Source: an uncultured Clostridiaceae bacterium
GTDB lineage: Bacteria; Bacillota; Clostridia; Lachnospirales; Lachnospiraceae
Direction: 5' to 3'
Assembly: GCA_947177415.1 (NCBI GenBank)
Contig: CAMWUK010000001.1
Location: 1 to 64,000 of the forward strand
Length of the DNA: 64,000 nucleotides
The notes beneath the pieces are model-generated. The model did no database searches and had not been told where the DNA came from. It worked only from the letters and a program-made list of their open reading frames with translations. A program made the position numbers and the translations under genes. Of the stretch, positions 7,748 to 10,231 are shown in pieces (position 1 is the stretch's first letter; the number at the start of each line of letters is the position of its first letter).

Positions 7748-8095
7748 ATGACAGAACAATGCAACGGATTTACCTGCCCCGTGGAGGCAACAATCTCCCT
7801 GATCGGAGGCAAATACAAGGCAGTCATATTGTGGCATCTGATGAACAATACCCTACGGTACAGCGAATTGCACCGCAAAATGCCAAAGGCAACAGATAAA
7901 ATGCTTGCCCAACAATTAAGAGAACTGGAAAAGGACGGCCTGATCAACCGTGTGGTTTATCCTGTCGTGCCGCCAAAGACTGAATACAGCCTCACGGAAT
8001 ATGGGAAAACACTTGCCCCCATACTGGATGCCCTGTGCGACTGGGGCGAAAACTATTTATCCGAAACACAAAACTGTAAGGAGAACTGCCAATGA
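7748..8095 (+). CDS. HxlR-family transcriptional regulator
   Basis: CPVEATISLIGGKYKAVILWHLMNNTLRYSELHRKMPKATDKMLAQQLRELEKDG. Confidence 0.93.
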   Translation: MTEQCNGFTCPVEATISLIGGKYKAVILWHLMNNTLRYSELHRKMPKATDKMLAQQLRELEKDGLINRVVYPVVPPKTEYSLTEYGKTLAPILDALCDWGENYLSETQNCKENCQ

Positions 8096-8292
8096 AATAC
8101 TTCCATTCCAGTCAATACCCGATTGAATTTGTTCTGTCCGAAAATATAAACAAAGATTTTTCTTCCCACAACCATGCAAACCATTCCATCATTTCCCTCT
8201 GCATAAAGGGCAGTGTTCCCGCCACACTGGAAAATAAATTCCTAAAATTAAAGGAAAATGGCAAGCAGATGGAATATTCCATATCTAACTGA
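8092..8292 (+). pseudogene. Truncated N-terminal (cupin-like) fragment of an AraC-type regulator
   Basis: MKYFHSSQYPIEFVLSENINKDFSSHNHANHSIISLCIKG... stops at 66 aa; no HTH domain follows. Confidence 0.5.
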
Positions 8293-8410: not shown

Positions 8411-10048
8411 ATGACTCAACTTTACAAATATGTTAATGAAATTCCAAAACCATTATTAGATGATTTTGTTCATGGAAAAGTTATTCCATTTGTAGGAGCA
8501 GGATTTTCTAAAAATGCAGATATTCCTGAAGGAGTATCAATGCCCGAATGGAATGAACTTGGCAAAGCGATTGCTAGTGAAATACCTAATTATGAGTATG
8601 AAAATAATGCACTTGATACGTTGTCATATTACGAAGCTTTATTTTCCCGTCCAAATTTAATCGAGCTACTAATGAGAGAATTGAAAGTAGGTAAGGTTCA
8701 GCCAGGAGCTACATACAGTGCATTTTGTGAAGTATTTACGGATATAGTGTGTACTACTAACTTTGATTTTTTACTTGAAGACACCTATAGAAATTTGCAA
8801 CATCCTATTTCCATTATTGCAACTGAAGATAGACTTCCAATTGCAACCGAAGGAGAAACTAAACTTATTAAATTGCACGGGGATTTTAATCATCCAGATA
8901 GAATGGTTATTACAGAACACGATTATGATGTATATATTGATAATAACCCTATATTAGCCACTTATATCTCCAACTTATTTATAACAAAAACAATGCTTTT
9001 AATCGGATATAGCCTTGATGACTATGATTTTCGTAACCTTTGGCAAGTGATAAATAGCCGTTTGGGAAAGATGGCACGTCCAGCATATTGCATTATGGTT
9101 GGTGCTTCCTCCGAAAAGATTGCCCGCTATCAAAGAAGGAATATAAAAGTAATTAATCTTAAAGGAAAGGTAAATGACTACAAAACCATCTTAAAAGACT
9201 TTTTTATTGAGTTAAAAGAATATATTCTTAATGAAAAAATGAAGTCTGCCAAAAGCACAGATGAGAAGATAAATGAACAGTTATTACTTCCATCAGATAG
9301 CAATCACTTATGTTTTATATCCTGTTCGATGTCACGTATTTCTCAACTTAAGACCATACTATATCCTTTATTACAAGAAATGGGAATTACACCAATAAGA
9401 ATCGACGATATGCTAATGCCTGATGACAACTGGATGGATATAGCAAGAATGACTATACGAAAATCGAATATGGCGATAGTGGATATTTCTGATTACAACC
9501 CCAATGTAATGTACGAGCTTGGCATAATTCAAAGTGAAAAGGAACAAACTTCTATTATAACTATAGCAGAAAAAGGTTCCACTATTCCATTTTCTATCGC
9601 CAATTATCGTATTTTGTTTTATACATTTGATTGGATTAATGAACAAGAACAATCGTATGTTTTTCAGAAAAATTTCAAAGAATTATGCAGTAATGCCATT
9701 ACCAATAATGATATTTCTAATAATCCTTTTCAAGAAGCGTACAGATTATTTCGGAAAAATGAATTTTCTGCTTGTATAATCTCTGCTTGTTCTGAATTAG
9801 AAATACTATTTCAAAAACATTATGATGGGACAATTACAAGAACATCATTGCCTGTTATGCTAAAAAACTTAGTCGCTAAAGGCATATTTAGCAATTCAAC
9901 ATACAAGGAAATAATGGAGCACTGGACACTTAGGAACAAAATTATTCATAGTGGATATAAGGCAAGCAAGGAAGAAGCCAATAAAATTTTGGAATTTGTT
10001 GCAGCTCTTAATCAAATGGATATTGCTGCTGTAGATAGTAATCTTTAA
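8411..10048 (+). CDS. SIR2-like + TIR/deoxyribosyltransferase-like + HEPN-like C-terminal protein; defence candidate
   Basis: SIR2: GAGFSKNA, CTTNFDFLLED, KLHGDF, IGYSLDDYDF; middle: MAIVDISDYNPNVMYELGII; C-term: LRNKIIHSG (Rx4H). AGGAGG upstream of ATG. Confidence 0.85.
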   Translation: MTQLYKYVNEIPKPLLDDFVHGKVIPFVGAGFSKNADIPEGVSMPEWNELGKAIASEIPNYEYENNALDTLSYYEALFSRPNLIELLMRELKVGKVQPGATYSAFCEVFTDIVCTTNFDFLLEDTYRNLQHPISIIATEDRLPIATEGETKLIKLHGDFNHPDRMVITEHDYDVYIDNNPILATYISNLFITKTMLLIGYSLDDYDFRNLWQVINSRLGKMARPAYCIMVGASSEKIARYQRRNIKVINLKGKVNDYKTILKDFFIELKEYILNEKMKSAKSTDEKINEQLLLPSDSNHLCFISCSMSRISQLKTILYPLLQEMGITPIRIDDMLMPDDNWMDIARMTIRKSNMAIVDISDYNPNVMYELGIIQSEKEQTSIITIAEKGSTIPFSIANYRILFYTFDWINEQEQSYVFQKNFKELCSNAITNNDISNNPFQEAYRLFRKNEFSACIISACSELEILFQKHYDGTITRTSLPVMLKNLVAKGIFSNSTYKEIMEHWTLRNKIIHSGYKASKEEANKILEFVAALNQMDIAAVDSNL

Positions 10049-10083
10049 ATTCAATATTGTATGCATATAATATTGAATTTAAA
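10044..10083 (+). terminator. Perfect 15-bp inverted repeat, 10-nt loop, over the stop of the SIR2 gene
   Basis: TTTAAATTCAATATT / AATATTGAATTTAAA. Confidence 0.75.
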
Positions 10084-10231
10084 GATGTGATAATTTACGA
10101 TGCAATATGCTGTGGATTAATTTTAGATAAGTAAGAATGTAATGTCTTACCAATCATTAAATTGGGTTATCCAAATTCGCTTGTTAAGGACGTTCCCTTT
10201 GACTATACCGTAATTTCATACAGAGCCGATC

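Follow-up and report, generated by a model that had tools for sequence, protein, structure and literature searches.

SIR2, TIR and HEPN are among the effector domains encountered most often in bacterial immunity and are normally found in separate systems. For the SIR2 domains of ThsA (Thoeris) and DSR2, the destruction of NAD+ is established, and KomC of the Kongming system is labelled as a NADase in its own PDB entry. The available part of a review of shared defence domains presents SIR2 as the effector of the known SIR2 systems and contains no SIR2-TIR-HEPN fusion (PMC10952713). In the 2013 survey of HEPN proteins, DUF4145 domains are joined to TIR plus ATPase, to restriction enzymes and to AbiJ-NTD, with no Sir2 among the partners (PMC3710099). 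A SIR2-TIR-HEPN fusion is also undescribed in the literature searched, in which few subscription journals were covered, and none of the models of PADLOC 2023 and NCBIfam 2026 covers the whole architecture.

A gene of this type was found in the window, i.e. the whole stretch of 64,000 nucleotides that was analysed. It is preceded immediately 5′ of its ATG by an AGGAGG-like ribosome-binding site and is present as a single copy in the host genome (4.63 Mb, 250 contigs). The gene and its predicted domains are as follows:

8411 to 10048, + strand: complete gene (ORF call) with ATG start, encoding the SIR2-TIR-like-HEPN protein of 545 aa (AF2 model with pLDDT 88.8 and pTM 0.87)
8411 to 9247, + strand: SIR2 NADase-type domain (Pfam SIR2_2), residues 1 to about 279, with N117 and H156
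9299 to 9703, + strand: TIR/nucleoside-deoxyribosyltransferase (NDT)-fold domain (fold match, profiles), residues 297 to 431, with Glu369 in NVMYELG
9731 to 10045, + strand: helical HEPN domain, DUF4145/HepT-like (profiles, invariant residues), residues 441 to 545, with R508-N509-K-I-I-H513 and E464

The SIR2, TIR and HEPN motifs quoted in the initial annotation are all present in the ORF and go beyond chance, as judged from the SIR2_2 E-value, the family-wide invariant residues and the TIR fold score given below. The proposed SIR2 / TIR-NDT-like / HEPN architecture is upheld by sequence profiles, a confident fold prediction and conservation across the family. The fusion is not unique to this protein, as 55 other full-length relatives exist.

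The N-terminal domain matches Pfam SIR2_2 (PF13289) with an E-value of 9.8e-28 and 97.5 bits, compared to a gathering score of 24.5, and carries the catalytic-type Asn and His, N117 and H156, which all 58 relatives compared have in common. The top PADLOC models are ThsA (3.5e-28) and Dsr2 (6e-26), both confined to the first ~270 residues; ThsA, KomC and DSR2 are also the sequence relatives of this part in the PDB, and SIR2 matches dominate the Foldseek search with the whole AF2 model. H156 is aligned to H146 of KomC, the residue mutated in PDB entry 9xvc (counted from the printed alignment). It is quite probable that the domain is an active NADase and, by homology, it is likely the NAD+-destroying effector of the protein. 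The protein as a whole is read here, with reasonable though limited confidence, as a horizontally mobile single-gene abortive-infection protein in which the predicted SIR2 activity destroys NAD+. SIR2 domains near those of the family were also found joined to an FHA domain (L079:7938-9305) or to NB-ARC and TPR repeats (L089:8022-10811) instead, and due to these fusions the SIR2 part can be regarded as a swappable effector.

The middle domain was analysed with a separate model of residues 293 to 545 (pLDDT 89.1). Its TIR part superimposes on the TRR-2 TIR domain (4w8g) with a Z-score of 14.9 and an rmsd of 2.4 Å over 122 residues and on the SfSTING (Cap12) TIR domain with a Z-score of 14.8 and an rmsd of 2.0 Å, which places it within the TIR fold; further matches are the SPARTA TIR, SARM1 and the N-glycosidase DNPH1. 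Sequence profiles point in the same direction. The PADLOC TIR effector model matches the protein itself (2.6e-4), Pfam TIR_2 matches nine family members, and the CAP12/Pycsar TIR and Nuc_deoxyrib_tr profiles match three each. In the PDB, the profile of the middle domain finds DNPH1/Rcl (0.005), TLR TIRs and TIR-STING. Glu369 aligns with the Glu of the YELG motif of Rcl/DNPH1 and is kept at this catalytic position in 51 of 55 rows, as read by eye and allowing for a two-residue deletion.

The retained Glu369, the strong fold match to the enzymatic TIRs SfSTING, SPARTA and SARM1 and to DNPH1, and the position of ThsA as the top SIR2 profile would all fit an all-in-one relay similar to Thoeris. 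In such a relay, an active TIR domain would make a NAD-derived signal or product that switches on a SIR2 domain, either within the same protomer or in an adjacent one, with the HEPN domain binding the signal or holding the oligomer. However, no SLOG-type ligand domain is seen, the Glu is missing in L054, L063 and L082 (and ambiguous in L068) although the SIR2 and HEPN motifs remain invariant in these proteins, and the surrounding motif is degenerate outside the Glu in most proteobacterial members. A relay of this kind is considered unlikely, and catalysis by the TIR domain as such is possible but somewhat doubtful. The nearest relatives of the middle domain outside the family are stand-alone TIR-like proteins of 258–311 aa from Firmicutes and phage proteins such as SM1 gp11. 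Stand-alone, uncharacterised TIR-like proteins with the pattern CFVIMPI...NPNVxYELG are present in many Lachnospiraceae (L105-L110).

For the C-terminal domain, DUF4145 was matched with an E-value of 0.0014 and 19.1 bits, which is below the Pfam gathering score of 23.1, whereas the relative L083 exceeds this score with 23.7 bits, and an E-value of 1.8e-7 is reached in a relative. Among the family members with E ≤ 0.01, DUF4145 was matched five times, RiboL-PSP HEPN eight times and HepT three times, and HEPN was matched as well. In the PDB, a search with the domain profile gave the HepT toxin (0.004) as well as weak matches to Csm6 and ApeA. The sequence R508-N-K-I-I-H513 agrees with the R-X4-6-H motif of HEPN domains, and none of R508, N509, H513 and E464 varies among the aligned full-length rows. 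The domain is all-helical in the confident models of both the whole protein and residues 293 to 545; the structural match list of the latter is filled by TIR chains, so that the lack of HEPN chains there is uninformative. The HEPN assignment of the initial annotation is supported by the motif and by the profile matches across the family, and the predicted HEPN domain still carries those residues of the motif that an RNase would need. Whether it acts as a catalytic RNase is evenly balanced.

Since R-N-x3-H and E464 vary as little as the SIR2 residues, and DUF4145 HEPNs, of which about 80% retain their catalytic motif, are joined to many conflict domains (PMC3710099), the HEPN domain might instead be the main toxin. 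The protein would then be an RNase suicide protein, with SIR2 and TIR as sensors of NAD(H) or nucleotides that license RNA cleavage. This is rather improbable, as conservation is highest in the SIR2 domain, which is of the kind found in known NADase effectors, in line with its effector role in the available part of the defence-domain review (PMC10952713).

The 55 other full-length relatives were collected from 84,980 scanned genomes, one viral contig and one plasmid. Together they span about a dozen phyla plus the phage contig, including Bacillota, Pseudomonadota, Bacteroidota, Acidobacteriota, Chloroflexota, Cyanobacteriota, Fibrobacterota and others among the bacteria, and Thermoplasmatota, Thorarchaeota and Methanobacteriota among the archaea. 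Two Nitrosopumilus proteins (L087, L088) were left out of the family, as the SIR2 part alone is in common. The closest relatives come from Lachnospiraceae and other Clostridia (71% and 58% full-length identity), and the full protein is encoded in 3 of 299 genomes of the taxonomic family of the host. In the phylum sample, no clear full-length copy was found besides that of the window genome; E. coli contains no copy, and the plasmids searched contain no relative of the window locus at the DNA level. In one relative (L027:2243-4246), an extra C-terminal response-regulator receiver domain is present (E-value 1.5e-11), hinting that its activity could be wired to a phosphorelay.

The phyla are intermixed in the family tree. 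The distance matrices of the three domains correlate with r values of 0.79–0.86, compared to a permutation maximum of 0.19, which speaks for an old three-domain architecture that is transferred as a whole. The SIR2 and HEPN motifs are under strong constraint across the family. Mean identity amounts to 0.50 for SIR2 and to 0.28 each for TIR and HEPN, and the greater divergence of the latter two is as expected of a sensing half. The faster-evolving TIR-HEPN half is likely to be the part that would sense, oligomerise and gate.

With regard to the surroundings of the gene, two further features were annotated in the window:

8092 to 8292, + strand: truncated AraC-type regulator gene, first ~49 aa only, directly 5′ of the SIR2-TIR-HEPN gene
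10041 to 10086, + strand: AT-rich palindrome across the stop codon, absent in relatives and not a classic terminator

The fragment at 8092 to 8292 corresponds to the first 49 residues of a complete AraC-type protein of ~248 aa. Since only these residues match and no further part of the gene is present anywhere in the window, the AraC gene reported as broken is indeed truncated, and it is a possible insertion scar of the SIR2-TIR-HEPN gene. The AT-richness noted earlier was also confirmed (G+C of 0.32 for the gene compared to 0.45 for the window). In contrast, the strong terminator ascribed to the gene could not be verified. The palindrome of 21–23 bp consists nearly entirely of AT (z -5.2) and lacks a T tract, and a search for a terminator-like site was negative, so a classic terminator was rejected at this position.

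Upstream of the truncated AraC gene, an HxlR regulator and then a nitroreductase are encoded, and downstream of the SIR2-TIR-HEPN gene a convergent metallo-hydrolase is followed by MerR and CMD genes. The locus looks like an insertion; an empty site was sought in the same genus and none was found, as only the upstream flank aligns (66%). Further downstream, the G+C content steps from ~0.38 to ~0.49 near 26–27 kb, and the region from 27000 to 63000, with minus-strand ORFs of 2150 and 1636 aa, resembles a large integrative element. For the region of 26–50 kb, the plasmid collection gave no near match.

No operon partner could be assigned: in an all-against-all comparison of 763 neighbour ORFs from 55 loci, no gene occurs in more than four loci. 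The gene is shared between a Cyanobium and a Ramlibacter genome (L046:1939-3591 and L048:7957-9610), i.e. between different phyla, as a common stretch of 1656 nt with 87.6% identity, which extends from 34 bp 5′ of the start codon to 17 bp past the last codon; otherwise, the two loci have nothing in common. A recent transfer would explain this, a mis-binned contig being less likely. Copies are also located on plasmids of Bradyrhizobium (split into pieces) and Agrobacterium, and on the viral contig the gene sits between the genes for the major head protein and the scaffolding protein. On the Agrobacterium plasmid pAt1 (L022:3242-5870), the gene has a dCTP deaminase gene as its immediate upstream neighbour and is followed by a VapC pair; a multiubiquitin-ThiF-DUF6527 set is located a few kb 5′ of it. 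As far as the compared sequences can tell, the SIR2-TIR-HEPN gene is horizontally mobile as a single gene.

Among the near neighbours of the relatives are genes for type III methylases (L049, L050) and for a type II restriction enzyme (L030). Others encode a TIR/PDC-S73 protein (L069), an Orf5/HEC-06-like protein (L031) and a HamB-like helicase that includes a caspase-like part (L064). For the 148 genes nearest to the family members, 194 PADLOC models were matched (E ≤ 1e-10), compared to nine for 128 control genes; the controls come from other genome positions of four Lachnospiraceae genomes only and are taxonomically narrow, and the count of matched models is crude and inflated by redundant methylase models. 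The plasmid and ICE-like settings, together with the window's own locus, which contains no defence genes and is not a defence island, would also be compatible with a protein for stress or addiction carried by a plasmid or element, or with a metabolic enzyme outside defence. Such a role is very unlikely given the patchy distribution within the host's taxonomic family, the restriction and defence genes adjoining the relatives, the phage-borne copy and the lack of a conserved antitoxin-like neighbour over the loci compared.

The defence reading is supported by the defence genes near relatives, the copy on a phage contig and the cross-phylum transfer as a single gene, as well as by the proximity of the SIR2 domain to the phage-defence NADases ThsA, DSR2 and KomC. 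A role of the protein against mobile genetic elements is hence highly probable. The abortive-infection protein proposed here would rest as a homo-oligomer without activity. Its fast-diverging TIR-like/HEPN half would sense a phage product or a nucleotide altered by the phage, and this would rearrange the oligomer, upon which the SIR2 domains would hydrolyse NAD+ and the infected cell would be halted before phage release. The HEPN pair could cleave RNA as a second blow or gate the activity via RNA binding, and the TIR part would mainly serve as an oligomerisation or ligand module, possibly acting as a NAD or nucleotide glycosidase via Glu369. A bolder version, to which little probability is given, would have three potentially active conflict enzymes in one polypeptide (SIR2 NADase, TIR NAD/nucleotide glycosidase and HEPN RNase), with TIR chemistry or the NAD+ state relayed in cis to SIR2 and HEPN. 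If true, this would be a self-contained immune protein for signalling plus double killing, present in bacteria and archaea. As the three domains are united in ~545 aa, and the SIR2 and HEPN residues do not vary between archaea and gut Clostridia, a coupling of NAD+ depletion and RNA cleavage can be tested directly within one molecule.

In comparison with the known systems, Thoeris ThsA is similar in its N-terminal SIR2 NADase domain, which gives the best profile, and in its size of ~500 aa. It differs in the C-terminal half, which contains SLOG in ThsA and TIR-like plus HEPN domains in the protein described here. The ThsA profile covers residues 16 to 256 only, the remainder consists of a TIR fold and helices, and no neighbour that could take the place of ThsB is conserved over the 55 loci, nor is any other; due to the missing SLOG and ThsB, an identity as ThsA was rejected. 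DSR2 and DSR1 are likewise single-gene proteins with an N-terminal SIR2 domain (profile E-value 6e-26, residues 5 to 273), but they comprise ~1000–1280 aa with a large C-terminal part. With 82.8 bits against an NCBIfam cut-off of 1400 and 291 of 1215 profile positions covered, an identity as DSR2 was rejected as well. Kongming KomC and the SIR2 of short-Ago systems (SPARSA) share the SIR2-type NADase with the same catalytic-type His, but belong to multi-gene systems, whereas SIR2-TIR-HEPN has no partner gene.

Cap12/TIR-STING, the TIR-APAZ protein of SPARTA and Swarozyc share the TIR or TIR-like fold with a Glu at the NDT/TIR catalytic position. TIR is the effector in these systems, whereas it follows SIR2 as the middle domain in the protein described here, which also lacks the STING part of TIR-STING and the DUF4062 part of Swarozyc; the latter assignment (PMC13174449) was discarded as no DUF4062 occurs among the Pfam matches at E ≤ 1. 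The stand-alone TIR-like proteins and SM1 gp11 resemble the middle domain, but have neither SIR2 nor HEPN. DUF4145-type HEPN proteins and HepT share the C-terminal helical domain with the invariant R-N-x3-H. Taken together, SIR2-TIR-HEPN is predicted to be a variant of SIR2-based single-gene defence, and defence annotation gains a compact, unnamed family that is probably a single-gene anti-phage suicide system.
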